Below, piece after piece: positions 164-50,999 of a DNA stretch of 52,579 nt; within the stretch, counting starts at the first letter, position 1, and each line of letters begins with the position of its first letter. A program made the position numbers and the translations under genes. The stretch is from Ruminococcus sp. (GTDB taxonomy: Bacteria > Bacillota > Clostridia > Oscillospirales > Acutalibacteraceae). The notes below the pieces were generated by a model. That model saw nothing but the letters and a program-made list of their open reading frames with translations. It was not told where the DNA came from and searched no databases. Where the stretch lies: positions 1-52,579 of the forward strand of contig JAFQQF010000007.1 in assembly GCA_017411385.1 (NCBI GenBank), written 5' to 3'.

Positions 164-802
164 TTATTCTATATAGTTTTTAAGCTCTGTAAGCGAGTCG
201 ATTATCACAGCATCGGTAACAGAGAGCTCACGCCTGCATTGATGCCCCTTTGTGTTTAAAATACAATCACAACGAAGAGCCTGTGCCATTTGCCAATCGG
301 CAACACAATCACCGATGACTACAACATCATCTGGCGAGATATTGTTTACAGACAAGTACTGCTGTGCAAGAAAAGTCTTATCGCCACAGTTATAGTCACT
401 CATAGCAAGGACATCTGTAAAGTATGAATATAGCTTTAGGTCTTTAAGACGCGCTGTTACCTTGTCGATATGAGATGCAGAAACTATAAGCTGGGTTTTC
501 TCAAGAGAATTAAAGTAGTCTAGTACTGCAACGGCATTTTCCATTACAGGATAAGGCTTCAGGTATTTTTCATAGCCTGTGTCAAATTCACTGATTGCCT
601 CCTCAGGAGTTATACTGCCAGAAACAAAAACCTTCTCGTAAAATTTCCAGATTGGAATATCTACGTTTCTGCTGTAATCATCAAGAGTTATGACAGGCTG
701 ATTTCGGCGAATAAGCATATCGTTAACAGCACCCAAAGCAGCATTCACATCGTCTACAAGGGTTCCGTTGAAATCCCAGATAATTGTTGTGTATTTTTTC
801 AT
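164..802 (-). CDS. HAD-superfamily hydrolase-like protein (phosphoglycolate-phosphatase type)
   Basis: A 212-residue HAD-fold protein. Motif I is WDFNGTLVDD, with the nucleophile at Asp10; the second position of the usual DxD is Asn12 rather than the general acid/base Asp. Motif II is a Ser in LIVSAS, motif III a Lys in the GDK segment, and motif IV GDCVAD. An alpha-helical cap domain lies at about residues 15-85. HAD proteins with DFNGT are known in gut bacteria, so the Asn may reduce or alter phosphatase activity, or be normal for this subfamily. Its ATG overlaps the stop of the nucleotidyltransferase gene by 4 bases, placing it last in the PqqD/HprK-like operon. Substrate unknown; a dephosphorylation step paired with the kinase-like protein of the operon is an inference. 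Confidence 0.8.
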   Translation of the reverse strand: MKKYTTIIWDFNGTLVDDVNAALGAVNDMLIRRNQPVITLDDYSRNVDIPIWKFYEKVFVSGSITPEEAISEFDTGYEKYLKPYPVMENAVAVLDYFNSLEKTQLIVSASHIDKVTARLKDLKLYSYFTDVLAMSDYNCGDKTFLAQQYLSVNNISPDDVVVIGDCVADWQMAQALRCDCILNTKGHQCRRELSVTDAVIIDSLTELKNYIE

Positions 803-2007
803 TCGTTTGCCTTTCTGTCATAGGAAAGTCCTGCTTCTTCCATTACAAGACGAAGACGCTTTGCTTGTTGTGAATCGGTGGAAACCGAGTAATACTTAAG
901 ATTTTTTGTATTCAGATTGCGTTTTCTGAAAACACGCTCAAACCAATGGGCACAAAGACAAAAAGGATAGAGAATTTTGTGTGCTTTTGCCGAGGGATAA
1001 AGCTCTGCGATTGTTTTATATGGCACAAAGACTTTTCGCAGAAACAGCTTAAAGGCAGTCTGCTTCTTACCCGTTTTCTTCTCTGAAATAATAGCGTTGG
1101 ATATGTACGAATCCTTTGCGTTTCCGAAGGTGCAGGCACAGAGAATGTAGTCTGCAAGGAAGGTATCGGTGCAAGGCTCATCCTCAGAAAACCAATTAAA
1201 AGCAAGCTTTCTAACTTTACATTCGAAATCTTTAAGGTTAAGCTTTTCAAGCTCGTTACTAAGATATGCTTTATCAAGATTATCGTAATACTTTCTGCAG
1301 AAAACGTATACATCGGTAATCATACGAATTCCTGCTCCGCCGTAGATAAAATGCTTTGAAAGATGACAAAGTAAGAACAGATATGAGTCCTCCGGATTCA
1401 AATGCCCCACAAGAGAGCCAGCAGGATATACACCTCTGTCAAGAATATCAGAAAAATAAACATGATTAAGTTTTTTATCCGAATGTAATTCAAAATGATA
1501 AAACGGTTCTTTGTTGAAGTTAAGTTCCTCTCCATTTTCTTCAAGTGTATATCCTAAAGAAGCAAAAATATCTTTAACCTCTTGCTTCTTGTCTGAAGCA
1601 TAGATGATATCAACATCTGTCATTGAGCGCATTGAGGGTATAGGATAATCATTCTTAATTACATAGCCTTTAACAGGAATACATTTTACACCTGCATCAG
1701 ACAAAGAATTAAGAATCAGCTCTGTTTCCAAATTTACATTTGAGTCGGTTACAAGTGCCAAAGCCTGATGCTGTCTGAACAGCTCGTATATTTCACTTTG
1801 AGGTCTTTGCACCTTGGGCAAAGCACAAACGGCATAGGAAACCAAGCTTGCCAATGAATGAAGCTCAGAGAGGGAATACAACGCCTGCCAGTTTACAGCT
1901 GTGCAATCAGGCAGTCGCCTCTCGGAATCAAGTGCATAAGCAAGAAGTTTGAGAAGATATGAAAAACACTGTGCATATTCGGATTTTGCTTTAGTTTGCA
2001 AGTTCAA
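799..2007 (-). CDS. Nucleotidyltransferase family protein (NTP_transf_5 / PF14907 type)
   Basis: 402 residues. The core motif near residues 110-136 (PVKGYVIKND...SMTDVDIIY) has the paired aspartates D131 and D133 of the polymerase-beta-like nucleotidyltransferase fold, as in the uncharacterised family PF14907. Members often sit in RiPP clusters, including lasso-peptide clusters that also carry an HPr-kinase homologue and an ABC transporter. The start appears to be TTG, inside the 3' end of the ABC transporter gene (17-base overlap), so translation is probably coupled. The C-terminal region is basic and unassigned. Transfer of a nucleotide to a peptide or to a small-molecule partner is an inference; the substrate cannot be told from sequence. 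Confidence 0.75.
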   Translation of the reverse strand: MNLQTKAKSEYAQCFSYLLKLLAYALDSERRLPDCTAVNWQALYSLSELHSLASLVSYAVCALPKVQRPQSEIYELFRQHQALALVTDSNVNLETELILNSLSDAGVKCIPVKGYVIKNDYPIPSMRSMTDVDIIYASDKKQEVKDIFASLGYTLEENGEELNFNKEPFYHFELHSDKKLNHVYFSDILDRGVYPAGSLVGHLNPEDSYLFLLCHLSKHFIYGGAGIRMITDVYVFCRKYYDNLDKAYLSNELEKLNLKDFECKVRKLAFNWFSEDEPCTDTFLADYILCACTFGNAKDSYISNAIISEKKTGKKQTAFKLFLRKVFVPYKTIAELYPSAKAHKILYPFCLCAHWFERVFRKRNLNTKNLKYYSVSTDSQQAKRLRLVMEEAGLSYDRKANE

Positions 2008-3742
2008 GCACCACTATCTTTCCGTCCACTATACGAACTTCTTTGTTACAAAGGGCATTTGCCGCTTTTTTATGAGATATGAGGATACAGGTTTTATCAG
2101 AGAGGCTTTTAATATTTTCGAGCAAGTGAAGCTCTGTTGCCTCGTCAAGAGCAGATGTAGCTTCATCCAGAAGAATTATGGGAGCACCTGAAAGGAAGGC
2201 TCTGGCTATTGCAATTCGCTGAACCTGACCTTCGGAGAGTCCCATTCCCTTCTCGCCTATTACCGTATCAAGCTGCAAAGGAAGTGTGTAGATAAAATCA
2301 GCACAGGCAAACTCTATCGCTTTGTGGATTTCTTCTTCGGTTGCATTTTCATTGATAAAGGAAATATTCTCGCGGATAGTACCCGACAGCAGGAAGTTAC
2401 CCTGAGGCACATAGGAGAAAAGTTTTCTCAGGTTGCAATCCACAGGAACCTTGCTGCCATCCTTCATATTCAGGTAGATTTCACCGTCTTCGATAGGAAA
2501 AACACCTAAGAGAAGCTTTGTAAGGGTACTTTTTCCGATGCCCGAGATACCTGTCATCACAACCAAATCTCCCTTATTAATCGAAAGAGATGTGTTGTCA
2601 AAAATCAAAGCTCGGTCATACTTGAAGGTAATATCCTTAAACTCGATGGTTGAAAGGTTATTGTAAAGCTCCTCCACATTGATGCTTGAATTGTTGAGGG
2701 AAATTTCATCCTCCAATTGCTCAAACTCCATAATACGCTCTGCAGAGCCTATGGCTGCATAGTATGTGGGGAGTATGCCTGTGAGGGAGTTGATAGGTGC
2801 ACTAATCTGTGATATAAGAGAAAGCACCTGAGAAAGTACACCGTAGGTAATAAAGGAGTCCCCCTGTGCAATCTTGACAGCACAGTAGAAGAGTCCGAAA
2901 AGATAAGCTGCGTTGTATGCTACAGAAAAAGAGCCATGAGTTACAAGAGAGATAATGTTTCTCTTAGCTTTTCTCTTATAGTTAACCTCCTGAAGCTCGG
3001 AAGAAATGTCGCATACTTTTTTCTCTGCACTGAACACCTTAACAACAAGCAGGCTGGAGAGAGTTTCCTGCATAAAGGAACGGATTTTACCATCTGTTTC
3101 CATAATCTGCTTGTGGTAGTTCTTCATATACCTTTTAAACAAAGAAGATATCACAAAAACAAAAACTCCAACTGCCACAAAAGCAAGAGTGAAGCGGTAG
3201 TCGATAGACAAAAGCACAAAGAAAATACCTATCAGCTTTGAGATAGTAAAGGTAAGTCCGGGAATAAGAGTAGTAATAGCATTTACAATGGTTGCAACAT
3301 CATTATTAAGGCGGTTAAGCATCTCGCCTGTATGAAATTTTGTTACACTTGCAAAGCTCTTTCTGATTATAGTTCTGTAAAGGTTAGACTTCAAATTAAT
3401 TGTAAGCCTTGCATTAATCCTAAACACAAGATGATTAGTAACAATAGTAAGAATTACTCTTACAGCAACCATAGTCGCAAAAACTATTCCCCAGAACATA
3501 ATTCCCTGAAGACGCTGTTGGGTTAGAGTGCCGAAGGAGCTTTTACCTATTGCGGAATCAACGACGTTTCTAAGCATATAGGAATTTGTAATAGCTATGC
3601 CTGCCAGAACAACATTGAACAGGGTAAGTAAGAATATATTAAACCACTGTGGTTTTGAGCTTTTGATTATCCATCTGACAGCATTGCCGTCAGAAAGAGC
3701 CTTGAACAGCTTCTTTATTGTAGACATTTCCTCCACAAGCAT
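1991..3742 (-). CDS. ABC transporter, fused permease and ATP-binding protein
   Basis: About 583 residues: an N-terminal type-1 exporter transmembrane domain (roughly residues 20-310, six predicted helices) and a C-terminal nucleotide-binding domain with Walker A GISGIGKST, signature LSEGQVQRIAIARA, Walker B IILLDEATSALD and the switch His in ISHKK. It has no N-terminal C39 peptidase domain, so it does not itself cleave a leader. The start at 3742 has AAGGA five bases upstream; an ATG at 3727 is also possible. It is the likely exporter of the neighbouring small peptide or a related product, by analogy with the D component of lasso-peptide clusters. It sits between PqqD-like and nucleotidyltransferase genes. 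Confidence 0.88.
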   Translation of the reverse strand: MLVEEMSTIKKLFKALSDGNAVRWIIKSSKPQWFNIFLLTLFNVVLAGIAITNSYMLRNVVDSAIGKSSFGTLTQQRLQGIMFWGIVFATMVAVRVILTIVTNHLVFRINARLTINLKSNLYRTIIRKSFASVTKFHTGEMLNRLNNDVATIVNAITTLIPGLTFTISKLIGIFFVLLSIDYRFTLAFVAVGVFVFVISSLFKRYMKNYHKQIMETDGKIRSFMQETLSSLLVVKVFSAEKKVCDISSELQEVNYKRKAKRNIISLVTHGSFSVAYNAAYLFGLFYCAVKIAQGDSFITYGVLSQVLSLISQISAPINSLTGILPTYYAAIGSAERIMEFEQLEDEISLNNSSINVEELYNNLSTIEFKDITFKYDRALIFDNTSLSINKGDLVVMTGISGIGKSTLTKLLLGVFPIEDGEIYLNMKDGSKVPVDCNLRKLFSYVPQGNFLLSGTIRENISFINENATEEEIHKAIEFACADFIYTLPLQLDTVIGEKGMGLSEGQVQRIAIARAFLSGAPIILLDEATSALDEATELHLLENIKSLSDKTCILISHKKAANALCNKEVRIVDGKIVVLELAN

Positions 3743-3776
3743 CACCTTCCTTGCCGAAATATAATAATAAAACAAT

Positions 3777-3798
3777 GCCGTACAGGATACTGTACGGC
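3777..3798 (-). terminator. Intra-operon hairpin between the PqqD-like and ABC genes
   Basis: Nine-bp perfect arms at 3777-3785 and 3790-3798 with a GATA loop, followed on the minus strand by a T-rich stretch. It may lower transcription of the distal three genes or be an RNA-processing site. Confidence 0.5.
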
Positions 3799-3816
3799 TT
3801 TGATGTTCACAGTATA

Positions 3817-4080
3817 TCAGTCAAGAAGCTCTGCATCACGAAGCTGTGCGATAAATTTTTCAACATCAGTTTTTGCAAGCTCCTCTGAAACATCGTAGTG
3901 CTCCAGCATATTCTTTACAACCTCTGCCTCTGTTGTGTCGTTCTCAAGAAGCTGCCAAAGGAAAGCGCCTGCTTCGTTGAGGTTAATCATACCGTTAAAG
4001 CTGGCAACAGCAGAACCAACAGGAACGACTACGTAGCTGTCTGCAACTTTTCTAAGCATAAAATTCTCTTTGATTTTCAT
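3817..4080 (-). CDS. PqqD-like coenzyme PQQ synthesis family protein (probable RiPP recognition element)
   Basis: 87 residues with the PqqD/RRE winged-helix pattern: an N-terminal beta-hairpin (FMLRKVADSYVVVPVG), the conserved FNGMINLNEAGAFLWQLL segment, then a helical C-terminus. Proteins of this fold bind leader peptides of ribosomally made, modified peptides. In lasso clusters the equivalent B1 protein reads a YxxPxL leader motif; the 49-residue peptide at 6264-6413 carries YEAPSM. The gene follows the HPr-kinase-like gene by 14 bases with an AAAGGATG ribosome site. No modifying enzyme for it to partner is visible except the kinase-like and nucleotidyltransferase-like proteins. Confidence 0.85.
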   Translation of the reverse strand: MKIKENFMLRKVADSYVVVPVGSAVASFNGMINLNEAGAFLWQLLENDTTEAEVVKNMLEHYDVSEELAKTDVEKFIAQLRDAELLD

Positions 4081-4094
4081 TTTTATACATCCTT

Positions 4095-4802
4095 TCAGAA
4101 TTGCTCTGTGATTTCAAAAACTGTGTGAACAGCTTCATCGCTGTTAGTACAGTATAATTTATAAAAGGGATATTTGGAAATAATTTCATCGTACAAGCTC
4201 AGGACCTTGTCCATAAGCTCTGAGTTATATTTTCTGGGAACCTGAGAGAAAAGCAAGGGCATAACCTCTTGAGAAGTAAGCCTTACAAGCTTATCCTTCT
4301 CTGCGCGTTCGATAAAAACGATTGCTCCAAGCTCTGCTTTATCGTTACATTGAATTGAAGTGCCGCCTGCAAAAGGTGTACCGTAAATAATACATTTACC
4401 GTCAATTAAGCGAAACGAGGGTTTATCGTCATTTATGATTTTAGTATCCTCAGGATAAAGCCTGCAAAAACGCTTTGTTAAAGTTGATTTACCTACTCCC
4501 GAGGAAGCTGAAAACAAATACGCCTTGTTTTTGAATTTTATGGCTGAACTGTGAATATAGCTGCCGTTAAAGCATCTGAGAAGCATACGGTTGAAAACAT
4601 TGCAAAGCACCATGTTTTCTGCTATAGGAGGTGTAATATCCAAGCCCTCTCTGACAAAATAATCTACACTTTCCTGTCGATAAGTCAAGGGAACATCAAG
4701 GCTCAGTGGCTCATCTGTGATATATTCTTCATACCAAGGTGCCGTTTCTTCATACTTTTGGGGCATTTCGAATACAACATCTGCAATTTTATATCGTGCC
4801 AT
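4095..4802 (-). CDS. HPr kinase/phosphorylase-like ATPase (HprK-related, RiPP-associated type)
   Basis: 235 residues. The Walker A segment SASSGVGKST (about 98-107) is preceded by a His in YIHSSAI (H84), at the place where HprK has its own conserved His, and followed by INDDKPS (D125, D126), resembling the acidic pair of HprK. The N-terminal HPr-binding domain of true HprK is absent, so this is not the catabolite-control enzyme. Stand-alone HprK homologues in lasso clusters (paeninodin type) phosphorylate a Ser of the precursor. Its ATG overlaps the stop codon of the leucine-rich-repeat gene by one base, so the two are translationally coupled. The substrate is unknown. Confidence 0.78.
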   Translation of the reverse strand: MARYKIADVVFEMPQKYEETAPWYEEYITDEPLSLDVPLTYRQESVDYFVREGLDITPPIAENMVLCNVFNRMLLRCFNGSYIHSSAIKFKNKAYLFSASSGVGKSTLTKRFCRLYPEDTKIINDDKPSFRLIDGKCIIYGTPFAGGTSIQCNDKAELGAIVFIERAEKDKLVRLTSQEVMPLLFSQVPRKYNSELMDKVLSLYDEIISKYPFYKLYCTNSDEAVHTVFEITEQF

Positions 4803-6100
4803 TAAATCTGCACCTCTGCGCCTACAAAAAGTATACCGGGAAGACTTGCGCAGTACTTCTGAATCTGGGTTGCGTCCTTGATATTAACGCCTGATGAACC
4901 ATCGCAGTTGGCGAGAAATCTCTGAATGCTATCGAGCTGCACAAGCTCTGCACAAAACTTTTGAATCTGAGTTGCATCCTTAACTGTTATTCTGCTGTCA
5001 ACATCACAGTCACCTATGAGGTATGTTTTCAAAGCTGATGTTGGCTGAGGAGTGGTTGTGGGCGCAACTGTTGTCTGAGTCGGTGCTTCGGTGGGTTCTG
5101 TGGGAGCACTTGTGGGCCCGTTTGTGGGAAGCTCGGTTGGTTTGGCAGTTGGTGCCTCGGTGGGGTTATCGGTCGGAGCTGAAGTCGGTAAAGTAGGAAG
5201 CTCTGTAGGCTCTGTTGTTACAGGGCCGGTAGTAACGGGAATTGTGGGAGCTTCTGTAGGAGCTGAAGTAGGTAAGGTAGGAAGCTCTGTGGGCTCCACG
5301 GGTAATGTAGTTGCAGGCTCAGTCGCAACAGTAGTGGGAACCTGAGGTATAGTAGTAACAGGCTGGGTGGGTACGGTTGTAGGCTCGACAAACTCGGGAG
5401 CTGTAGGCTCTACATAGGTACCGTTTGAAATAAAGGGAATTCCTTTTTCATTTGCAAACTCCTGTGCGTAGGTTCCTTCCCATCCGTTAATTGAAAGGTT
5501 TTTACAGCCTAGGAATGCTGTGTCTGCAATGTATGTAACAGAAGGTGAAATTATAGCGGTTGAAAGAGATGAGCAACCGCTGAAGGCATAGCCTTCAATG
5601 CGTTCAATACCCTGTGCAATAACAGCTGTGCTCAGAGATAGACAGTTGTTAAAGCAATGAAGGGGTATCGACTTAAGTGAGGAATTATGCTCAAAGGTTA
5701 CGGACGTTAATGAATTGCATCCGTAAAATGCATTGTTACCGATAGAAGAAACTGTTTTTGGTACAATCACGACTTTGAGTGCGGAGCAGCCGTAAAATGC
5801 ATTATTACCAATGGAGTTTATAGTATCTGGGAAATCAATATACTGAATAGTATTGTTATTGAGGAATGCCTCGTTATTAATTTTTGTAACCTTTTTGTTC
5901 TGGAACAGAGCAGGAAAGGTCACTCTTGAATTCTTGCCTAAGTATTTTTCGATATAATACTCTGAACCATTGAGGGATGCCTCATAGCGCCAGTCGCCAT
6001 CCTGAATATAGGTAGCCGCAAAGGCAGGTACAAGAGATACGGCAAGAACAGCTATGATAAAAACAACGCATAACAAGGGCTTTGTAAAAGATTTCTTCAT
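4802..6100 (-). CDS. Secreted BspA-like leucine-rich repeat protein with C-terminal dockerin
   Basis: 432 residues: signal peptide (1-29, cleavage near AFA-AT); BspA/LRR_5 repeats at about 55-205, with recurrent IGNNAFYGCSSL-type units; a Thr/Pro/Glu-rich linker at 230-357; and a type I dockerin at 360-422 with two calcium-loop/helix units (GDCDVDSRITVKDATQIQK and CDGSSGVNIKDATQIQK). It should be exported and held on a cohesin scaffold or the cell surface. LRR_5 proteins often mediate adhesion. It has its own promoter at 6142-6170 and heads the operon with the HPr-kinase-like and PqqD-like genes, which is an odd partner for RiPP-type genes. The linker DNA is repetitive and produces false ORFs on the other strand. 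Confidence 0.88.
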   Translation of the reverse strand: MKKSFTKPLLCVVFIIAVLAVSLVPAFAATYIQDGDWRYEASLNGSEYYIEKYLGKNSRVTFPALFQNKKVTKINNEAFLNNNTIQYIDFPDTINSIGNNAFYGCSALKVVIVPKTVSSIGNNAFYGCNSLTSVTFEHNSSLKSIPLHCFNNCLSLSTAVIAQGIERIEGYAFSGCSSLSTAIISPSVTYIADTAFLGCKNLSINGWEGTYAQEFANEKGIPFISNGTYVEPTAPEFVEPTTVPTQPVTTIPQVPTTVATEPATTLPVEPTELPTLPTSAPTEAPTIPVTTGPVTTEPTELPTLPTSAPTDNPTEAPTAKPTELPTNGPTSAPTEPTEAPTQTTVAPTTTPQPTSALKTYLIGDCDVDSRITVKDATQIQKFCAELVQLDSIQRFLANCDGSSGVNIKDATQIQKYCASLPGILFVGAEVQI

Positions 6101-6141
6101 AATAAAGCTCCCCCAACATAAAATATTTTATATACAGTAAT

Positions 6142-6170
6142 ATTATATCAAACTTGTATACAAATTGCAA
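6142..6170 (-). promoter_or_regulatory. Promoter of the LRR-dockerin operon
   Basis: On the minus strand TTGCAA (6165-6170) and TATAAT (6142-6147) are separated by 17 bases. The GGGGGAG ribosome site and ATG at 6100 follow. Confidence 0.65.
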
Positions 6171-6202
6171 TATATTACAAAAAAGATGTGAGAATTTTAT
6201 AC

Positions 6203-6237
6203 AAAAAAGGGTGGATGCATACACATCCACCCTTTTT
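6203..6237. terminator. Bidirectional terminator after the 49-residue peptide gene
   Basis: A hairpin with arms AAAAGGGTGGATG / CATCCACCCTTTT and a short loop, A-rich on one side and T-rich on the other, lies between the peptide stop (6264) and the LRR-gene promoter. It should end most transcripts of the peptide, making the peptide a separate, probably abundant mRNA. Confidence 0.8.
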
Positions 6238-6263
6238 AAGTTTATGGAAAAATAATTACTGAG

Positions 6264-6413
6264 TTAGTCCTCATCTGCAAATGGATCATCATCATCCATT
6301 GTTTCGCGTGTGTTGTCTAAAACAGGGGTTTCAGTAACGAATATGCTGGCAGTTAAAACATTAACTGTGGGCTGAAACCTGATAATTTCCATACTTGGTG
6401 CTTCATATTTCAT
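6264..6413 (-). CDS. Small 49-residue acidic-tailed peptide, candidate RiPP precursor
   Basis: An ORF from ATG at 6413 to TAA at 6264. It begins MKYEAPSMEII, continues with a Thr/Val-rich middle (residues 16-30) and ends in an acidic tail (DDDDPFADED). AAGGAGG lies 9 bases upstream and a consensus promoter at 6449-6477. It has no signal peptide and no Cys. YEAPSM matches the YxxPx(L/M) motif that PqqD-like proteins bind in lasso-peptide leaders; the PqqD-like, HprK-like and ABC exporter genes follow within 2.5 kb. Short peptides opening MKYExPxMEI are frequent but uncharacterised in Clostridia. That this is a substrate of the operon is an inference; that it is expressed is well supported by signals. 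Confidence 0.72.
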   Translation of the reverse strand: MKYEAPSMEIIRFQPTVNVLTASIFVTETPVLDNTRETMDDDDPFADED

Positions 6414-6448
6414 AATACCAAAACCTCCTTACATAAATTTACGTATAT

Positions 6449-6477
6449 ACTTTACCACAAAATGTTGATATTGTCAA
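6449..6477 (-). promoter_or_regulatory. Strong promoter of the small peptide gene
   Basis: TTGACA (6472-6477), 17-base spacer, TAAAGT (6449-6454) on the minus strand. It abuts the stop codon of the giant gene upstream (6482), so the two transcripts are separate or nested. Confidence 0.75.
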
Positions 6478-6481
6478 GTGT

Positions 6482-9400
6482 TTACGCAAAGGAGGTATTA
6501 TTTTCTACAACTGCATCTTTAATGCCCTCATTGTAAATATTCAATGTCTGAACATTACTGATGTATGTAGTTGTCACACCATTATAAGTAACAGTCAGGT
6601 ATCCGTAAACATTGTAGAATCTGTTCTGGTTACCGGAAGTGTTGTTCTGCTCGAGAACGAAGAGAACTCTGTTCTTATTGGTAATGTTGTGCTCTGTTGC
6701 ATCGTAAACATAACCGTAGGTGTTTGTTTCGCCAATGAAGCCCTTTGCAGCACCGGAATTAAGGAATTCAATGAGAGTTGCATCATCTGTTGCAGTGCCG
6801 TAACCCTTTTCCTTAGCTGCAGCTTCTGCTGCTGTAAAGTCGTTGTTATACTTATCCTTAATCTTGAAGGTACCAACCTGCTGGAGAAGTACGCCGTAGC
6901 TTACTTCATAACCTGCTCTCTCGAGAGATTCGATTGTAACAAGTGTCTTACCCCAGCTTCCGTCTGTAATCTCCTCACCATCATAGATAGGAGTAAATTC
7001 AGGATGGTTGTAGTAGAAGTAAGGTGTGAGGATATTTATAACATAGTCGATGATTACAATGTCAGTACTGTTACCGCCTGATGAGTCTGTTGTCTGCTCA
7101 CGTCCGTAAACAGGAGCATCAAGAGATACATTGAACTTATAGTCATCATCGGAAGCAACGTACTGATAGTTGATAGCCATATCCTGAGTTACACGGTAAC
7201 CATAGTAAGGACCATATGTAAGGATAATATCAACTGTTTTTTCATAAGTGCCGTTATTGTTTACATCCTGATACCAGTATCCTGTGTAGCTTGCATCAGG
7301 TACAAGGTCGCGGATATCAAGGTCAACAACTGTGTTGTAAGGAACCTTGTTAACAATAACACTTGCGCCGTTTTCAGTAACAACAGTTGTTGTTACTGTG
7401 TACATTGTCTCAGGCTGTGTTGCCCAGAGAAGGAAGGTCATTGTGTTGTACATTGAAGAGTTAATCTTCCATGTTGTATCCTTGAAATAGTCCTCAACAT
7501 AAGGAGCGTTTGCAAGGATTGTGTTTACCCATGAATTATCAGTAGAAGAGATATATGCAGGTGTAAATTCAGTATTGTTGTTACCTGCAAAGCCCTTGAT
7601 TTCATCATCATTAAGCTGATACTTCACATAGTAGCTCTTGGGATTACCATAACGATCTGTGTACTGATAAATAAGTGTAACCTTATCAGATACGGGCATA
7701 AGGTCGGAGTAGAAATTGAGCACGAAATCGTCATCTGCACCAACAGTATACCAGAACTGGAAGTATACTCTGTCGATAGAGCCTTCTACTGTAGAAACAT
7801 TCATATAGTACTGGCTGTTAGGATCGGAGAAAGCAAGGTTGTCATCAGAATCAACACCTACTTCTTCGAATGTTGTTTTGCCATACTTATCAACTGCATC
7901 TGTGTACCATGCGTAGAACTTGTCAGCACCGATACCATCAGTTGCGATTGTAATGAGAAGTCTGTCACCCTCAGTTGCTGCAAGACCTGCAGAATTACCA
8001 AGGAGGAGAGAAGTTGTTGTACCCTGAGTTACATTCTGGATACCAACATAAAGCTGTGCATTACCATTGTGTGCAGGAGGTCTGTAGCTTGCTGTACCGT
8101 TGCCTGTGTAAATGTAGTGGTTTACATAGAAGGAACCTTCTGCAAGAGGCTCAAATACAGCTACGTAGTGAGTACCGATAGCAGCTGTAACGTCAGAAGC
8201 AAGGTTAGTATCGAAGAGCTTGCCATCTGCTGTGTACCAACCAACGAACTTGTAACCCTTAAGTGCCATACCTGTAAGGTGAGCTACATCACCACGAGCT
8301 ACGTCAACATTCTGAACATCGTTGATGAAAGCTTCACCATAGATAGCCTTGTTGAGGTCGCCGTCTTCATCGATAACGTACTTACCATCGTCGCCCATAA
8401 GAGCTACCTTAACTGAAAGGTTGATTGTTACGGATACATTTGCGTCACCGTACCATTCACCGTCGTAACGAGCACCATTTACATGCTCATAAGAGATGTA
8501 AGCTCTCTGATTTTCGTAAGCTGCGATAGTAGTCCAGATAGCGGAATCCTCGTCGTGGAGCTCGTAAGAATAGCACTTACCAAGGAATTTACCTGTTACA
8601 TCGTAGAGGAAACACTCTACATACCACTGACCGTCAAGTGTATCATTAGTAACACTCTTGTCACCTGCCTGAATGATATACAGAGCATCTGTATCATTGA
8701 GGCCTGCATCAATGGACTCAATGTTGTTGCCGAAGATATCAATCTTCAGACCGGAGTAATCGGTATACTGAACAAAGTCCCAGTTACCGTCTGTAATACT
8801 TACAGTGCCGCCGTTGACACGGTCAGAGTTGTAAGTATCGTTAGTATCCTTAATTACGAATGTGATGTTTTGTTTGCCATCATTAAGAAGTGCAATAAAC
8901 TCATAGTAGTCGTAAGTCTGGATGTTAGTGTAATTAGTTACTGCAGAGTTATCGATGTTATCACCGGAAGGATAGTTGTTGAATGTGATACCGGAAATCT
9001 GAACATTATCACCTGTGGAGGTTTCAACGATTGTGTAGTAAACACCATCAAGACCTGTTACAGGAATCATAAGCTGACCGGACCATGGACCAAACTGCTC
9101 GTACTGAGTTACGCCGCCAATCTTGTACCATGTATATGCTGCAAGATACTGATCCCAGTTTGTGATATCTCTATCAGCAACTGCGTAAACAGTAACTGTT
9201 TCTACACTGTTTGCAGTAAGCCATTCGTTAGTATGGAAGTAAACGGGAACAACAGTTGTGTCATCCTCTGAGAAGATGTAAGAACCGCTGTACTTACCGT
9301 TACCAAGAGAAGTAGCTGTTACAAACTCTGTACCGTTGATTACCCAACCTGCTACATAGTAGTCATAACCGTTTGTTGCTGTGTTCTTGTTAACCTGAGT

Positions 9401-12400
9401 ATAGAAGGTTACAGGATTACCTGCAACAACCTGAGCTGTTGTGTAGTAGGTATGCATCTCAGTTCTGTTAACTGTATCGTCGTCAAAGTAGGTGTCACCT
9501 ACTCTGCCGTTAGGAGTACTCATGTTAGTGTCTGCTTCGTTTTTACCTCTACCGTCTGTACCGATTACTGTGATTGTGGGAACATTCTCAGTAATAGTCC
9601 AAGTAAAATCACCTGTGTAAGGATAGAAGGTAATAAACAAATCGTAAGCTTTGTTGAAGTTCTCGGTATCAATCTTAATCTTGATGCGCTCAGGAGTGTT
9701 TGTATGCTGATTAATACATACCGTATCAACATAATTACCATTCTCTGTGCCGGGAATGAAATTCCAGAAATGTGAATTCTCGTTAACAGGGTTAACATAG
9801 ATATAGCCGTCTTCTGTGGAATTAACAGTTAACTCCATTGTGTAAATTGGATAGCCGTTACTATCTGTACCTGCATAGTCAAAGGAAACATTGTCGTAAG
9901 TAGTGTGGTTTTTACCGTCCCATCTACCATCCAGATAATAACCAACCTCAACAAATTGAGTGGGAAAGCCTGTAGTATCTGAACCATTGGTGAAAAGGTT
10001 ATTTGAACCAATTACGAACTCCTTCTGGTTCTGGTTTGTACCATCGTTGAACTGAACATTGGTAGCATCGAAAGGTACATAGCCTACCCAAAAACCAAGA
10101 GAATTGTTATATGTCATGTTAACACCGGGCCAAGCAGGACCTGCGGATGAACCACCCCAGTAATAGATTTGGGGATTTGACCAGTTAGCATCGTTCTTAA
10201 GGTAGATAGCTTTCATAACCTTTTCGTAGTTAGCTGTTGCCTTGATGTTGCCGCCGCTTGCTACGATTTTGTAGGTTGTATCGCTCTTAGTTGTGTTGTC
10301 TGCGTTGTAATAAGCGCCTTCAATAGTCCAACCAACAAAACTGTAACGAGGATCAGTACAGTTAGTTGTAAGAGTTAAAACTGAATACTGCTGAACTACT
10401 GCTGTTGAAGAATTATTAACAGTAGAAGTAGCAGCTGCTGCAGGCTTTGTTACAACAGTAACTGTAAGCTGCTGGAGTTTGATCCATTCGATATCCAGTG
10501 TGTGGTCGGTTGTAATAGAGCTGAATGTGTATGTAGGCTCTTTTCCTGATGTCTGAGAATCAGCAACCCAATAGTAAATACCATAACCGTCGCTGGGTTC
10601 TGCTGTGATTGTTACAGTATCACCGGAAATAACCTCGATAACAGTACCTTCAGAAGGAATAAGCTCTCCGTTGTAATAAAGCTTACCGCTTGTTTCAGGA
10701 TATGCATCTATTGTAATCTTATAAGTTGAACACTTACCGTAGGTAACGATGATGTTTACATCTGCGGTTACACCAGAGATTGGATAATCATTCTCTAATT
10801 CTTTATATGTTTCATCAGTACCGGAGTAAACTTCCTGACCATTTACAAAAACGCTCTGGATGTAGTAAAGCTCAGGAGCAGTTATGTTGAATGTGGTGTT
10901 ATAACCGTAAGAAATCAAGTATTTGCCATTTACTTTAGCAACAGTATTGGAGAACTTTACCACGCCACCTGTTGCTTTGTTCTCGGTAATCTTGATTTCG
11001 GGGTTTTCTTCGTACTCGATTTCGATTGCTGTATCGGTTGTAAATGTAAGAGTTGCCTCGTAAGTCCAACCCTCAATATTTACCGACTCGCCATTAATCT
11101 TAAGGGATTTAATGAAATAATAAGTAGGAGCAACAAACTTAACCGCGAGAGCCTTGCCCTGAACTACCCTTACTGTACCTGTTGCAGTGGTGATATTTGT
11201 AGAACCGATCTTTGCTTCAAAAGGTACAAAGTTCTGAGTATAAGTTACTGTTACATAAGATTCGGACTCAAGAGCATCATATGCGGCTTCGAGAGCGTCA
11301 TATGCATCATTAATATTTGCCTGTGTTGCGTCAGCTTGACCTGATTCTGCTACAGCAGCATTGTAAGCAGTTACATAATCTGCCCATGAATCTGCAGTAT
11401 ATGTGCCATCAGAGTTGTTTGTATTTACAAGATCTGTGTGCTGAGTGATGAGGTCAAGGAGGTCACGGCGGAGAGTTACTTTGCCCTCCTGTGTAACCCA
11501 AACCTCTGTCTCACCTGCCCATACACCACCGGGTAAGAGGGTTTCTGTCAGGGAGATAACACCTGAGGAAGCGGATGCAGAACCATTATATGTAGGAGCT
11601 GTCCACGCAGTACCTGCATATTTGCCGTTGGACTCGTTGCCAATCCAGTAAGCAGAAACATTACCCGAATTTAGATCCAAGTCAACAGTCTGTGCTGAAC
11701 CATTGTTAAAAATAACTTTGTTAAAGTTTTTATCGTTTTTAACAACAATTACATACACATCCTGGCCCTGATCATTGGTATATGCTTTTTTCATTTCTGT
11801 ACCAGACCAACCACTGTAAGTCTGGTTAGTTGAGCTGTTCCAGATGTATGCTTTTAAGGGAGACCAGTTGTGATTGTTTGTACAAATAATGGTCTTGTAG
11901 CCATCCATGGAAAGGAAACTACCATCCTTGTACCAGTTAGCGGAATTAGTAGGATCAACAGTTGTTGTACCCTCAAGCTGTGCTGTAATGGTTGTAGCTG
12001 TCGGGGGGATTTCCTGCTGACCGGAGTTAGTCCACACAACACCATTGAAATCAGTTGTGTTTGTCTGCTCTTCTCCTTCAATGATATTTGTAGAATCTGC
12101 TGTTAAGGTCAGATTATTGTAACCATTTGCAGAGTAAGTGTAAACTGTGAGCTTTCTGCCCTGAACAAAACTGGGAGTAACAGTTACGTTTGCTTCGGGT
12201 CTGATTGTGATAGAATCAGATGTTTCAGAAACATCTGTCTTATCACCTGTGATAGTCCAGCCTGTGAGAACATAGCCCTCAGCAGGAGTTGCTGTGATTG
12301 TTACTGTATCGGGATATGTAACAGTATTTTTATCAGCCTCTGCTGTACCGCCAGTTGTATTGTTCACAGTTACTGTGTAGGTATTACCTGTGTACTGAGC

Positions 12401-14092
12401 CTTAACTATAAGGTCTGTGGTAACATTAGTAAAAGCTGTGTCCCAACCTGTGAAGGTGTAGTGAGCAACTGTGGGGGCTGTGGGAGCTGTTGCAGATGCA
12501 CCGTTAACAACTGTTTCGGTTTTGATTGTGGTACCATTCATACCTACAAATGTTACTGTCCATGTTTTTACAAACTTTGCAACAGCAGTTACATCTGATG
12601 TGGGAATGATAGTGAAGGACTCAGAATTAACAGTGCCTGTTTGTGGTGTGTATGTGCCTGTGATATCCCATCTGTCAAATCTGTAACCGGGTTTTGCGGT
12701 TGCAGAAAGAGTGATAGGATAGCCGTCTGCTACTTTCTGAGAAGTAGGAGATACAGACTGAGCGCCCTCAGCAGGAGAAGCTGAGGCAGACACAGTAAAG
12801 GTCTTTGTCTGAACAAAGTTTGCTGTTACGCTAACATTATTGGTAATGTTAGTAAGCTCAAGTGTTGTATGAGTTGTGTCACCTGCAAAATCAATACCGT
12901 CAATTGTCCAGCCTGTGAACACGTACTCATTGGCTGTATCGGCAGTTGCATTGAATGTAACAGAGCCGCCGTGCTCAACGGTAGTCGATGTGGGAGTAAC
13001 TGTGTTGTTACCGCCTGCAGGAGTTGCAGAAACGGATGCAGAAACTGTATAAGTGTTCTTCTTAAAGGAAGCAACAGCTGTTGCACCGTCTGCTGAAGGA
13101 GTAAAGGTAGTAGTTGCTGTGTTTTCATCACCTGAACCGTTTGTGAAAGTCCACTTGTCAAAGGTGTAACCTGTATCGGGTGTAGCTGTAAGGGTTACAC
13201 TTTCACCTGCTTTCACTTTACCACTTGTGGGACTTACCGAACCGCCCTCACCTGCTGATGCAGTGTAGGAGTACTTTATTTCTTCTTTTTCAAACAAAGC
13301 GTAAACAGTTTTTGCCGAATAGCTTATATCATACTTATAAGTATAAGTTGCATCAGTAGACACAATATTGCTCGCTGATGAAGAGGTAGACCAACCTACA
13401 AACTTGTAACCAGAAGCTGGTGTTGCTTTGAAGGTTGCGGTGGAGGCAGGAGCAAGAGTTGTGGATGATCCTGCTGAGCGTGAGGATGCAGTATTGTAAG
13501 CACTCATGTAGTAACCCTCAATACTTACAGTACCTGCTTCTGCATTAGAACTATAGGTTGTACTACCTGCTTCTGCCGCATACACTTTAGCTTCGGCTGC
13601 TAAATTCATATCAGAGGCAGATTTTTTGTAATTTATAGTCAAGCCTGCATTATTGGCAGTGCTTGCAGGTACACAAATATAGTAGCTACCGCTGTTAAAA
13701 CCATAGTCGTTATACACATTAGTATAGTGAGTAGCGTTTGTACGGTTGCTTGGACCCCAGCTACCACTTCCCCATAATGAGCTTGCATTAGCAAACGCAA
13801 CATAAGTTGCTCCGCCCCAAGAAGGCATAGTATAACGATATAAGTTGTCTGTGTTAGCAACTTTAGTCATTTCGTATACAGAAGTGTATCCATTATGTCC
13901 AATGAACATCATCACCTTAGATTCTGTCCACGTTGATGGTTTTAAAAAGTAAACATAACCACCAGTATGGTTTACTCCTGTATTTGCCAGCTCAACCTGT
14001 GCTGCGGAAATGCCGAGTGATGTTGTTGAGAGTAACATCAGAAGGGTAAGCAGCAGGGTGAGTGCACGCTTGAAAAATTTCTTAGTTTTCAT
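6482..14092 (-). CDS. Giant secreted multi-module protein with InlB-type and starch-binding-like modules
   Basis: 2536 residues. A signal peptide (about 1-31) precedes an aromatic-rich module (35-170), then a run of divergent InlB B-repeat-like modules between about 190 and 650, recognisable by repeats such as ATPDTGYTFDKWTFTNGSG and the GYxFxxW pattern. Further on are CBM26-like segments (around IYYWGGSSAGPAWPGVNM and the earlier KAYIWNSSTNQTYSGW), a FIVAR-like helical stretch (DLITQHTDLVNTNNSDGTY onward) and long beta-rich unknown regions. No catalytic domain, dockerin, LPXTG or C-terminal membrane anchor is visible, so its attachment is unknown. It follows the CotH/dockerin gene by 37 bases with TAGGAGGT upstream, implying one transcript. 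A role in polysaccharide binding or surface adhesion is inferred. Confidence 0.8.
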   Translation of the reverse strand: MKTKKFFKRALTLLLTLLMLLSTTSLGISAAQVELANTGVNHTGGYVYFLKPSTWTESKVMMFIGHNGYTSVYEMTKVANTDNLYRYTMPSWGGATYVAFANASSLWGSGSWGPSNRTNATHYTNVYNDYGFNSGSYYICVPASTANNAGLTINYKKSASDMNLAAEAKVYAAEAGSTTYSSNAEAGTVSIEGYYMSAYNTASSRSAGSSTTLAPASTATFKATPASGYKFVGWSTSSSASNIVSTDATYTYKYDISYSAKTVYALFEKEEIKYSYTASAGEGGSVSPTSGKVKAGESVTLTATPDTGYTFDKWTFTNGSGDENTATTTFTPSADGATAVASFKKNTYTVSASVSATPAGGNNTVTPTSTTVEHGGSVTFNATADTANEYVFTGWTIDGIDFAGDTTHTTLELTNITNNVSVTANFVQTKTFTVSASASPAEGAQSVSPTSQKVADGYPITLSATAKPGYRFDRWDITGTYTPQTGTVNSESFTIIPTSDVTAVAKFVKTWTVTFVGMNGTTIKTETVVNGASATAPTAPTVAHYTFTGWDTAFTNVTTDLIVKAQYTGNTYTVTVNNTTGGTAEADKNTVTYPDTVTITATPAEGYVLTGWTITGDKTDVSETSDSITIRPEANVTVTPSFVQGRKLTVYTYSANGYNNLTLTADSTNIIEGEEQTNTTDFNGVVWTNSGQQEIPPTATTITAQLEGTTTVDPTNSANWYKDGSFLSMDGYKTIICTNNHNWSPLKAYIWNSSTNQTYSGWSGTEMKKAYTNDQGQDVYVIVVKNDKNFNKVIFNNGSAQTVDLDLNSGNVSAYWIGNESNGKYAGTAWTAPTYNGSASASSGVISLTETLLPGGVWAGETEVWVTQEGKVTLRRDLLDLITQHTDLVNTNNSDGTYTADSWADYVTAYNAAVAESGQADATQANINDAYDALEAAYDALESESYVTVTYTQNFVPFEAKIGSTNITTATGTVRVVQGKALAVKFVAPTYYFIKSLKINGESVNIEGWTYEATLTFTTDTAIEIEYEENPEIKITENKATGGVVKFSNTVAKVNGKYLISYGYNTTFNITAPELYYIQSVFVNGQEVYSGTDETYKELENDYPISGVTADVNIIVTYGKCSTYKITIDAYPETSGKLYYNGELIPSEGTVIEVISGDTVTITAEPSDGYGIYYWVADSQTSGKEPTYTFSSITTDHTLDIEWIKLQQLTVTVVTKPAAAATSTVNNSSTAVVQQYSVLTLTTNCTDPRYSFVGWTIEGAYYNADNTTKSDTTYKIVASGGNIKATANYEKVMKAIYLKNDANWSNPQIYYWGGSSAGPAWPGVNMTYNNSLGFWVGYVPFDATNVQFNDGTNQNQKEFVIGSNNLFTNGSDTTGFPTQFVEVGYYLDGRWDGKNHTTYDNVSFDYAGTDSNGYPIYTMELTVNSTEDGYIYVNPVNENSHFWNFIPGTENGNYVDTVCINQHTNTPERIKIKIDTENFNKAYDLFITFYPYTGDFTWTITENVPTITVIGTDGRGKNEADTNMSTPNGRVGDTYFDDDTVNRTEMHTYYTTAQVVAGNPVTFYTQVNKNTATNGYDYYVAGWVINGTEFVTATSLGNGKYSGSYIFSEDDTTVVPVYFHTNEWLTANSVETVTVYAVADRDITNWDQYLAAYTWYKIGGVTQYEQFGPWSGQLMIPVTGLDGVYYTIVETSTGDNVQISGITFNNYPSGDNIDNSAVTNYTNIQTYDYYEFIALLNDGKQNITFVIKDTNDTYNSDRVNGGTVSITDGNWDFVQYTDYSGLKIDIFGNNIESIDAGLNDTDALYIIQAGDKSVTNDTLDGQWYVECFLYDVTGKFLGKCYSYELHDEDSAIWTTIAAYENQRAYISYEHVNGARYDGEWYGDANVSVTINLSVKVALMGDDGKYVIDEDGDLNKAIYGEAFINDVQNVDVARGDVAHLTGMALKGYKFVGWYTADGKLFDTNLASDVTAAIGTHYVAVFEPLAEGSFYVNHYIYTGNGTASYRPPAHNGNAQLYVGIQNVTQGTTTSLLLGNSAGLAATEGDRLLITIATDGIGADKFYAWYTDAVDKYGKTTFEEVGVDSDDNLAFSDPNSQYYMNVSTVEGSIDRVYFQFWYTVGADDDFVLNFYSDLMPVSDKVTLIYQYTDRYGNPKSYYVKYQLNDDEIKGFAGNNNTEFTPAYISSTDNSWVNTILANAPYVEDYFKDTTWKINSSMYNTMTFLLWATQPETMYTVTTTVVTENGASVIVNKVPYNTVVDLDIRDLVPDASYTGYWYQDVNNNGTYEKTVDIILTYGPYYGYRVTQDMAINYQYVASDDDYKFNVSLDAPVYGREQTTDSSGGNSTDIVIIDYVINILTPYFYYNHPEFTPIYDGEEITDGSWGKTLVTIESLERAGYEVSYGVLLQQVGTFKIKDKYNNDFTAAEAAAKEKGYGTATDDATLIEFLNSGAAKGFIGETNTYGYVYDATEHNITNKNRVLFVLEQNNTSGNQNRFYNVYGYLTVTYNGVTTTYISNVQTLNIYNEGIKDAVVENNTSFA

Positions 14093-14129: not shown

Positions 14130-17100
14130 TCAAAGGCAACCTGCTATCTTTTTCTGGATAGCGGTAGCATCTTTGATTGTTACTCTGGAGTCAGAGTTAA
14201 CGTCTGAAACCTCTTTGCCCAAGGCACCGAGAGTTTCGAGATTTGCAAGGAACTTCTGAATAAGAGTTGCGTCCTTGATGTTAACCTTACCGTCACCGTT
14301 TGCATCGCCTACGGAGATAAGGCTTGTGTTTGCAGAGAGTGAAGCAAGAGCTTCTTCGCCGTCAAGCTCAGCATCGTATACGCTGTGTACTGCACTCTGT
14401 GTCCAGTTACGCTCGTTTTCGGTCCATTCGGTCATATTAATCATTTCATAACCGGAGTTCAAATCGTCAACGCCAAGGTAAACAGAACCTGACTGAGCAA
14501 TATTGAATGTGAGCGTAGACTCCATCGCATAACGAGAAGAAAGGTATATATTAACTGTGAGTGAAGGTGAAGCCTTGGAAACCTGAACATCAGCTTTATA
14601 CCAATAGAAAGATGAAGTCTGAGTTTTGTTCTTACAAATGAAGGTGTCCTTAATCATTGAATAATCAGAAAGATTCTGTACGGCACCATTAGTTGTAATG
14701 ATAGGTCTGTAACCAACAGTTGATGTACTCTTGAAATAGATGGTTACATCCATAACTTCCTTAACCTCTGTGATCAGAACGTTTACTGTGCTGGAAGTTG
14801 CAGTGTAACCCTGACCGGCTACTGTAGTAGTTGCAACAACATAGAAAGATTTGGTATTACCGATATCCTCCTGAGTTGCATCAAAGGAATAAACACCTGA
14901 GTTGTTCTCTGCAACGGGTGTGCCGTCTGCAGCATAGAACTTGTATGTAACTGTTGAATTTGAAACAGCAGTTGCATTGAGTGTTGCCACCATACCAGCC
15001 TCAACTGACTGAGGAGCTGAGAGTGTTACATTGAATTCAAATGGATTGATTTCAACCTCAAAGTCATATTTTGCAATATACTCCTCACCATCAACCTTTG
15101 TGCTTACCTCAAGCTTGTAAGCAGGAGTTGAGCCAGCATCCTCTCCAGAGGTTTCAATGAAGAACTCACCTGTAATGTTTGTATCAATCAGATTGCCGTT
15201 TTCATAAAGGTTAAAGATAACTTCCTCATCAGAATTTGTCTTAGCTTCGATGTGGATTGTATCGCCAACCATAACCTTATCCTGAACTGTTACGTCAAGG
15301 TCAAATACAAAACCTTCAACTGTAACTGCTGCTGCAGCTGAAACTGCAGAAACTTTGGAGGATGTTGCAGATACAGCCTTAACAGTGTAGTTACCTGCGA
15401 TAGCTTTTTCTGCTGTCATGGTGTATGTCTTGCTCTGTGTTGTGTCAACCTCTACCCCATCTTTATAGATTGTGTAGGTGTAGTTACCATCTGTTTTGTC
15501 GTCGATTGTGAGGGTAACTGTATCCCCTGCTGCGTAAAGGTTTTTATCAGCAGTAACTGTGGGAGGCTGGATAATATAATCTACATTATAGATACCTGTG
15601 TGGTTTGAACCATCGCGGGAGATGTATTCGTCCATCCACATAAGGCGGTTATAGAACCAGTTGTTTAGGAAAACTACTGCACCATCGTGAGTTTCAGAGG
15701 TATCGTTAGAACCCCAGTCGCCACCGCCGTTCTGATTAGCAAGAAGATCCTTCCAGATCAGTCCCCACTTATCTTCATCCATTGCAGTAGAAGCTGAAAC
15801 CATATCGTAGAGAGCCTTCATAACACCGTCAAGGTCTGAAACAGAAGAAACTGTGCTATCAGCGAACTTTTTAGCTTCGGAACAAAAGATTTCATCCCAC
15901 TCAGCAACAACTACTGACCAGAAGTTGTCATTCTGACAGAGAGCAGCCTGTGCATTAAGAGTTGAAGCTCCGTAGATATTCTTGGAATTAAGATACCATC
16001 CGCCGTAATTAGCAGGACCTGCATCTACCTGATCGTAGAAATCACTGCCGCTGTTAATCTTGCTTGACTGTGATTTACTATACTGACCGAGAGTCCAGTC
16101 ATAGTCCCAGGCAACACCGGCATGAAGCTTGCCGCCATGATAGTATACATAGTAGGATGTTGCACCGCCGTCCAGGTTCTTTGTGAGTTCCTGGATAAGA
16201 TACATTTTTGCAAAAGACTCAACATCGATTACTGCATCGAGCTCTGCATATGTAGCTGTATCGTCGTACATCAAAGCTTCGGCAGCATTCCATTTACCCA
16301 TGATGAACTCAATCTGAGCTTTGGATGCATATTCAGGGTACTTACATACAATCTGCTGACCCTTTGTTGAAATGAAACCTGAGATTTCATCTGCGAAACG
16401 CTCATTAAGCTCGAACTCAAGAAGGAAGCCTGAGTCAGCATACAAAGCTGCATCAGGTTCTTCAAGCGCTACATATTTATAGAAGCCTTTTGTTGAGTTT
16501 GTAGACTGTGAACCGTTAACGTATCTGCGATAGGATGAGATGCTGTCTGCGCCATAGATGTCGTAGTTGGTACCGAAGGGACCGTTGTCCTCATCAACTG
16601 TACCAAGCATCTCGTTAATATCATCCAAGTTAACAATATCAACAAGAGGATCGCCGATCTCAACCTTATCAGTAAGAAGATATGAACCGATATATTTGCC
16701 GTTGTTATAGAAGTCAACAGGTGCGTAGTCTGCAACATACTCAACACCAATCTGCTGTGCAAGCTCATAAACAACAGCGTTTCTCATGCGAGCCTCATCT
16801 GCATTGTAAGAAACAAGGCAATATTTCTTTGCGGCATTGGATTCATCAAGGAGCTGTGCTTTCTTATCAAGTGTCAGGTTAAAAGCATACTTACCGATGA
16901 TTTTATGAGAAGCTTCCCATGAGGAGTTACCTCTGCCCTTAATTTTCTTAAGAACTGTGTTGGAGTTAATCTGATCTCCATCCTTATCGAAAACCACAAT
17001 TGAACCCTTGGTTTCAAAATCATCCTTGTGCTCATATCCCTGATATGTGCCCTGAGGAACAGAAACGCTTGTTGTGGTATGAATGGATGAAACATTTGCT

Positions 17101-17822: not shown

Positions 17823-17992
17823 AATATTACCTCCTAATCGCAAATTTGCGTTGCAGTAAGCAGAGTGTATAACTGTTAAGCGAAAACAGCGACTGACCTT
17901 CGCCGCTGCTGTGTGTTATGAACAGCCGACTCTTCAGCAATTCATAACACACAGCAAAATGCCAAAAGGGTATACTACTCCACCTATAAATT
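17823..17992 (-). promoter_or_regulatory. Long structured 5' leader of the CotH/giant-protein operon
   Basis: The leader inferred from the promoter at 17999-18028 is about 170 nt. It holds a perfect 16-bp hairpin (arms 17907-17922 and 17941-17956, 18-nt loop), a smaller AGCG/CGCT stem beside it and a self-complementary CGCAAATTTGCG next to the ribosome site. I could not match it to a riboswitch class I know. Within the 485-base gap 17823-18307 the rest is AT-rich DNA, a short inverted repeat at about 18225-18250 and the rpsR terminator. Confidence 0.5.

Positions 17993-37602: not shown

Positions 37603-37603
<1 letters not shown>
37569..37603 (+). terminator. Hairpin terminator between tRNA-Gly and the recombinase
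   Basis: Eleven-bp arms AGGACGGACAG / CTGTCCGTCCT (37569-37579, 37586-37596), followed by T-rich sequence on the plus strand. A second, weaker AAACAGC/GCTGTTT hairpin sits at about 37506-37528. Confidence 0.75.
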
Positions 37604-39267
<1,664 letters not shown>

Positions 39268-39360
39268 TCAAACCGATTGAGAGTGCATGGTGCAGATAGA
39301 GATTTCTGCACCACAACAATACTCCCAAACGGTTTAAATGTCCAGCGGAAAAGAAAAAGT

Positions 39361-39615: not shown

Positions 39616-39646
39616 ATTAAGTCCTTTCTCCAACTAATAGTTGGCA

Positions 39647-41063: not shown

Positions 41064-41066
41064 AAG

Positions 41067-41660: not shown

Positions 41661-41679
41661 CGAAAGTGACGAATGTTTT

Positions 41680-42720: not shown

Positions 42721-42745
42721 AAGAGTCACCTCCGTAAATAAAAGT

Positions 42746-50998: not shown

Positions 50999-50999
50999 T

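Follow-up and report, generated by a model that had tools for sequence, protein, structure and literature searches.

What does a peptide locus make that encodes a recognition protein, a kinase, a nucleotidyltransferase and an exporter, but no cyclase? The question is raised by a minus-strand locus in a 52,579-nucleotide stretch from Ruminococcus sp. (GenBank assembly GCA_017411385.1, contig JAFQQF010000007.1), here called the window, which is the entire contig C14 of its source genome (2.1 Mb, 93% complete). The original prediction had placed a 49-residue peptide upstream of genes for a PqqD-like RiPP (ribosomally synthesized and post-translationally modified peptide) recognition element (RRE), an HprK homologue, a PF14907 nucleotidyltransferase (NTase) and an ABC exporter, and had offered three options: modification by phosphorylation and nucleotide transfer only, a modifying enzyme encoded elsewhere, or a different peptide-signalling system. 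The first of these fits best. The gene set is that of a described RiPP type, the Linear Polyphosphorylated Peptides (LPP), published in 2026 from the lppAKBSDN genes of Paenibacillus alginolyticus (PMC13381572), and because of this resemblance phosphorylation without a cyclase is likely. The locus is an LPP variant, with a different leader, no SpI gene in the locus and few RRE genes for many precursors per genome. What is new is the link between the peptide and giant secreted proteins. The original prediction had recognized neither the LPP type nor this tie, and its gene list lacked the LRR_5 protein between peptide and kinase, the HAD phosphatase and the giant CBM26/InlB-repeat protein. Along the minus strand the order is CotH/dockerin protein, giant, peptide, LRR_5 protein, kinase, RRE, exporter, NTase and phosphatase, with the following features:

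14130..17843, minus strand: CotH kinase-domain protein with dockerin, neighbour upstream of the giant
6482..14092, minus strand: giant secreted protein of 2536 aa, with InlB/List-Bact repeats and two CBM26 stretches
6482..6871, minus strand: C-terminal domain of the giant, a predictor of a following peptide gene (without a match in the PDB or, for this member, in Pfam)
6449..6477, minus strand: promoter-like site of the peptide gene
6264..6413, minus strand: precursor peptide, 49 aa, LppA-like (open reading frame, and same place in related window-type loci)
6390..6407, minus strand: YxxPxM motif of the leader (Tyr3 to Met8), presumably bound by the RRE (residue conservation; motif as in the lasso and LPP leaders of PMC10368454 and PMC13381572)
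6345..6347, minus strand: Ser23 (Tyr+20), proposed phosphate acceptor (Ser position across 63 peptides; comparison with LppA and BsfA)
~6204..6237, minus strand: terminator-like hairpin 3' of the peptide gene (folding)
4802..6100, minus strand: secreted LRR_5 (BspA-type) protein, with a dockerin-like tail below the Pfam cut-off
4095..4802, minus strand: HprK-type kinase, LppK-like (invariant His84, Lys105, Asp125 and Asp126; fold match)
3817..4080, minus strand: PqqD-type RRE, LppB-like (PF05402; Asn35 and Asp72 at the LppB N33/D70 positions)
1991..3775, minus strand: MsbA-like ABC exporter, LppD-like (no peptidase domain found)
799..2007, minus strand: PF14907 nucleotidyltransferase, LppN/PsmN-like (D131-x-D133 invariant in 11 sequences)
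164..802, minus strand: HAD phosphatase, end of the operon (labelled in 9/10 related window-type loci)

The 49-residue peptide is a conserved gene. Its open reading frame (ORF) follows a Shine-Dalgarno-like site and differs from that of the closest relative (L074) at 6, 6 and 21 sites in codon positions 1, 2 and 3 (dN 0.15 and dS 1.08, from one pair of 49 codons). It lies in the same place, between the giant and the leucine-rich repeat (LRR) protein, in 9 of 10 related window-type loci, that is, in all nine that have the DNA for it; in the tenth (G088, L056/L076) the contig begins inside the peptide gene and only an apparent tail, ending DPFA, is seen. The order giant, peptide, LRR, HprK, PqqD, ABC and NTase recurs in 9 of 49 named loci, with the tenth (L076) showing it from the LRR gene onward, so that the search for a conserved block in related genomes proposed in the original prediction turned out in its favour. 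These loci belong to metagenome-assembled genomes called Ruminococcus sp., Clostridia or Oscillospiraceae bacterium, 8 of 10 from goat or roe-deer gut. The promoter and terminator that the peptide was said to own were also recovered. The promoter-like TTGACA-17-TAAAGT agrees with the consensus at 10 of 12 positions, with a TG before the second hexamer, and is one of only two sites scoring 10/12 among the 12 promoter-like sites of the region (7.1 on average in shuffles); the hairpin folds at -23.2 kcal/mol (z -5.4), and a pattern scan did not list it. The LRR gene stop overlaps the kinase gene start, and the LRR gene therefore probably starts the operon.

The published LPP set comprises an RRE, an HprK-like kinase, an NTP transferase, an MsbA-like exporter, a SpI-like peptidase and a YxxP precursor (PMC13381572). 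In P. alginolyticus the RRE binds the precursor through YxxP, the kinase polyphosphorylates core Ser3, leader cleavage by SpI is RRE-dependent and no cyclase acts; deletion of the NTP transferase brought no change in a heterologous host, and the biological role is stated as unknown (PMC13381572). The window-type locus shares the RRE, the kinase, the transferase (assuming that LppN belongs to PF14907), the MsbA-like exporter, the YxxP leader and the lack of a cyclase. Pfam confirmed three of the originally named proteins. The RRE matches PqqD (PF05402, 6.7e-20) and is 60-78% identical to those of ten window-type relatives; its Asn35 and Asp72, invariant in 16 aligned PqqD proteins, correspond in position to N33 and D70, the residues with which LppB holds the YxxP leader; PbaB1 has G42 and Q79 instead (PMC13381572). 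All 60 distinct PqqD segments have D at position 72; at position 35, 53 have N and the other 7 S or T. The NTase matches PF14907 (7.6e-42) and keeps its DxD in 11 sequences; its profile gave a single match, at E 0.68, among PDB sequences. The exporter consists of membrane and ATPase domains only, with MsbA as its best NCBIfam match, below cut-off. The HprK homologue held up by fold and failed by Pfam, which found P-loop matches only: the AlphaFold2 model (pLDDT 91) retrieved HprK/P structures at PDB ranks 1-18, with a best E of 3.4e-7. His84, Lys105, Asp125 and Asp126, invariant in 11 sequences, can be read as the His-Lys-Asp-Asp motif that PMC9266682 gives for lasso-tailoring kinases.

The precursor itself has no match in Pfam or NCBIfam. 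Across the 10 window-type peptides, the alignment keeps Tyr3, Pro6, Glu9, Phe13 and one C-terminal Pro invariant. In a wider collection of 63 peptides, for many of which YxxP was itself part of the selection, a Ser stands at Tyr+18 to Tyr+20 in 58, against 5-17 in four other three-residue windows, and the tail is net negative in all 63. A spacing of about 18-20 residues between the leader Tyr and a conserved Ser is shared with LPP: going by the residue numbers of PMC13381572 and PMC10368454, Ser3 is computed to lie at Tyr+18 in LppA, and that of BsfA at Tyr+19. Since neither a SpI gene at the locus nor the exact leader consensus is cleanly present, the locus is a variant of LPP and not a plain member. 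It also differs by an added HAD phosphatase, by precursors that stand right behind giant secreted proteins and beside an LRR protein, several per genome, and by its occurrence in Ruminococcus-like gut bacteria. Two further cassettes that combine an HprK-related and a PqqD-type protein were considered and rejected: the profile matches to HPr-rel-A reached 13.5 bits of 200 (TIGR04352) and 20.8 of 35 (TIGR04353), and those to SynChlorMet (ScmC/ScmD) were likewise all far below the curated cut-offs. To our knowledge, the function of both cassettes is unknown.

How often do the peptide and these genes occur together? A single-sequence search was weak beyond the peptide's own copy, and a 23-row alignment (A4) was used as the peptide model. 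It found the peptide in 121 of 150 genomes of the genus (E <=0.01, up to 8 per genome) and in 28 of 196 other genomes of the order (E <=0.001). For peptide, PqqD and HprK, 150 places each were listed, and the following counts hold among these listed matches. At 27/150 places a same-strand PqqD follows the peptide within less than 3.5 kb, where ~0.16 would be expected for a 2 Mb genome, and at 22/150 the peptide lies 0.9-1.5 kb upstream of an HprK, in agreement with the predicted co-occurrence; 41/150 are upstream of one or the other, and 47/150 lie within 15 kb of a PqqD in any orientation. All 25 peptide-HprK pairs within 20 kb share a strand, with the peptide upstream. PqqD occurs in 144 of 150 genus genomes, with 1-6 per genome (three in our own), and HprK relatives occur in 147, some of them as orphan copies in housekeeping contexts; at L061, L062, L065-L069 and L071-L073, HprK-type kinase genes stand beside unrelated, mostly housekeeping-like genes. 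A few RREs likely serve many precursors per genome.

Many of the peptide genes stand directly behind the gene of a giant protein. Opened contexts were taken from the top of the lists and not at random, and for the genus set matches already beside HprK were excluded. Across 20 genus contexts with 29 peptides, 21 peptides start <=36 nt from the end of a same-strand ORF of at least 347 aa (up to 3536, some edge-cut), with an LRR gene next in 19 and PqqD next in 2. The remaining 8 belong to a different class, largely of the MKYTAPEM type, and 7 of these have radical SAM, CotH or lipoprotein-like genes nearby. Twelve contexts from other genera hold 13 peptides, and 11 of the 12 with upstream DNA follow a same-strand ORF of at least 330 aa within 240 nt. 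With the same peptide model, a peptide was found behind 42 of 87 proteins of at least 700 aa and behind 10 of 542 proteins of 250-699 aa, a control that is biased by the many loci retrieved via the peptide.

By BLAST, 29 of the 33 genus giants are connected through their last 300 residues; outside this group stand L156, L159, L160, L174 and all nine giants from other genera. In an alignment of 24 members of the shared C-terminal domain, an Arg, a Tyr and a Ser are invariant; the domain has no match in the PDB, and no Pfam family was hit by two or more members. A test in which 31 of 31 domains were followed by a peptide was dropped as circular, because its loci had mostly come through the peptide, and it was therefore redone starting from the domain. 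When the domain alone was searched for in 80 genus genomes, 95 places in 53 genomes were obtained, and a peptide follows 90 of them: 40 from the peptide listing (8-187 nt after the match, one at 422 nt, in G009:C3), 49 by the peptide model on downstream DNA and one by eye (G006:C90). These 90 include a short ORF (G060:C4:140413), and G007 and G092 give 9 places each. Without the 13 places that are rows of the search alignment (counted by hand), a peptide follows 77 of 82. The five places without a peptide are G088:C11, G088:C18, G100:C8, G007:C94 and G007:C197. In a held-out check on 13 other giants the domain model found only one, and the giants outside the main group are therefore not covered by it. 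A second leader form, YxRTxLxITEF..EDVIxTS, occurs among the domain-linked peptides; at L256, L257, L259, L261, L265, L266 and L267 (G006, G012, G072 and G092), peptides behind giants carry a variant leader, mostly of this form, with the Pro replaced.

From gene content, conservation, positions and intact motifs, all directly observed, we infer an LPP-like treatment of this peptide, and we consider it probable that it is a linear phosphorylated peptide made as follows. The PqqD-type RRE would bind the YxxP leader and present the peptide to the HprK-type kinase, which would phosphorylate the Ser just after the leader (Ser23). The PF14907 enzyme may then add a nucleotide, sugar or glycan to the phosphate. 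Leader removal would fall to a SpI-like peptidase whose gene lies at another place in the genome, and the ABC protein would export a product in which no ring is formed. The same few genes would serve several precursors per genome. The frequent pairing of precursor and giant genes leads us to expect that the product acts with the giant, most likely at the cell surface.

Candidates for the peptidase are present in the genome: SpI-like places were listed on C51 (two), C43 and C24, and BLAST and profile place a further SpI-like gene beside PqqD on C52, yet absent from the genome-wide listing. The gene on C43 lies ~7 kb from PqqD, near exopolysaccharide (EPS)-like genes as read from ORFs. SpI-like genes are also present in sister clusters, and a similar gene set with SpI occurs in another family of the same order (L191). 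All five SpI-like proteins scanned matched the archaeal-type signal peptidase TIGR02228 best, below its cut-off. Also on C43 (L015:9196-11772), a PqqD gene is accompanied by an 84-aa Cys-containing YxxP ORF that lacks a clear ribosome site, by an unknown gene and by one for a radical SAM protein, the EPS-like genes and the SpI-like peptidase being some kb away. At L092 and L099 (the latter in Ruminococcaceae bacterium P7), PqqD directly follows a GroEL-like gene (ORF reading), with SpI too at L092 and no peptide seen nearby.

Several observations weigh against this interpretation. Among the listed matches, 109 of 150 peptides are next to neither PqqD nor HprK; taken literally, the peptide occurs mostly not directly upstream of these genes, the very outcome that the original prediction had named as speaking against the link. 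When 24 such unpaired peptides were opened, 16 lay behind giant proteins and 8 in other contexts, and since nearly every genus genome has PqqD and HprK relatives, supply in trans is the simpler reading for them. Two of the 121 peptide-bearing genomes (G010 and G096) have no PqqD match, and L115, L116 and L119 have no peptide between the giant and LRR genes. The leader agrees with LPP in part: the published YxxPxVLxHQxIxFETxxS has Px9F, whereas the leader here has Px6F, an E at +6 and no HQ, keeping YxxP and the hydrophobic residue at +5. Solved relatives of the RRE below E 1e-3 were, best first, TbiB1, 9x90, 9x8z and TfuB1; from residue numbering (offset 18), 9x8z would be LppB and 9x90 PbaB1, so that a lasso RRE scores best and LppB third. 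N and D at the two leader-holding positions are common in other RREs too (PMC13381572). The TM-scores of the kinase with HprK/P are low (0.39/0.50), and phosphoenolpyruvate carboxykinases come next, at up to 0.59 by query length. No SpI was found on C14 or labelled in window-type loci, and some PqqD-SpI pairs elsewhere adjoin housekeeping genes, with no peptide seen.

The same leader also occurs beside radical SAM, ATP-grasp and HprK/NTase genes (L017, L018, L023). On the own contig C48 (L018:1163-4659), three such peptides neighbour an ATP-grasp gene of the YheC/D type, and two lipoprotein-like genes come next. Contig C13 (L017:370-3126) has the order peptide, radical SAM, peptide, GDSL lipase-type lipoprotein and DUF4358 lipoprotein, a block found again on G165:C30. 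At L023 (G003, 5281-9701), two YxxP peptides, one with a Cys in its tail, surround an HprK gene, a PF14907 NTase gene and one RiPP-maturase-like radical SAM gene.

Such neighbourhoods (radical SAM at C13, L163 and L023; YheCD ATP-grasp at C48) speak for an RRE-bound precursor whose main modification is added in trans by a radical SAM or ATP-grasp enzyme, the kinase and NTase being accessory. This is distinctly unlikely: most of those peptides form a recognizable subgroup, MKYTAPEM..EEVIVAS, no such enzyme is labelled beside the giant-linked peptides of the opened contexts (where the BLAST screen used radical SAM references only), and Cys is rare in the tails (3/63). We give little credence to an unmodified partner of the giant, such as a chaperone, regulator or surface-assembly factor, with an incidental YxxP likeness and incidental PqqD and HprK neighbours. 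Coupling to the giant's domain (90/95) is indeed far tighter than to PqqD or HprK (41/150 among those listed), but neighbours of PqqD exceed chance, an RRE-type motif and a Ser are conserved, and another family of the order has the same set together with SpI, all of which argues for a modified product.

Phosphorylated lasso peptides (paeninodin, pseudomycoidin, Bsf) share with the locus, according to PMC9266682 and PMC10368454, a B1-type RRE, a K kinase with His-Lys-Asp-Asp, an N nucleotidyltransferase and a D exporter; membership was dropped because the cluster has no B2 and no C, and the peptides no conserved macrolactam pattern. The original prediction was right that the window lacks B2, C and radical SAM genes, PF13471, PF00733 and PF04055 all being without a match on the contig. 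It had also pointed to the DNA left of the window; there is none, because the window is the whole contig, and the relatives' flanks have no B2 or C: their block ends with the HAD gene (the NTase in L084), followed by Rex-, isocitrate dehydrogenase- and aconitase-like genes as read from ORFs, with neither enzyme after it. A lasso cluster with its B2 peptidase and C cyclase elsewhere in the genome is thus very improbable. In its favour, lasso clusters have accessory parts like all those present here: a YxxP leader, an RRE of the lasso type, a kinase, an NTase and an exporter. Against it, PF13471 is without a match in the own genome, and 11 carriers or relatives gave nothing above cut-off (below it, G100, in a frame with a stop, and G172), the five PF00733 places of the genome all lie on contigs without PqqD, and by eye the aligned peptides show no consistent Gly/Ala/Ser/Cys start with Asp/Glu at 7-9. 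Radical SAM (PF04055) has 18 places in the own genome, all on other contigs.

Elsewhere in the window, ORF reading points to two further systems. Positions 48256-52569 carry a two-component pair and an ABC transporter with two permeases, of a kind known from bacteriocin sensing or immunity, and serine-recombinase-, relaxase- and replication/sigma-like ORFs at 37603-45104 probably mark an integrated mobile element.

In an open-access literature search, no publication linked peptides of the LPP type with giant secreted proteins, and the main text of PMC13381572 has no mention of secreted, surface, leucine-rich, Clostridi or Ruminococc. For the preferred LPP-type reading, the C-terminal domain of the giant, which predicts a peptide gene behind it, offers a place to seek LPP function in Ruminococcus-like gut bacteria, be it at the cell surface, in starch or mucosal contact or in protein anchoring, and the domain and peptide models together give a searchable handle for further precursors. 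A more specific version, possible though on the whole unlikely, is that the NTase couples a cell-wall glycan or a nucleotide-sugar-derived group to the phospho-Ser, that the wall-bound peptide is a tag docking the C-terminal domain of the giant, and that a small maturation set serves several giant-peptide pairs. We know of no RiPP class with a role in anchoring or assembling surface proteins. If the wall-tag version were true, these bacteria would possess a RiPP-based display or anchoring system for their surface proteins.

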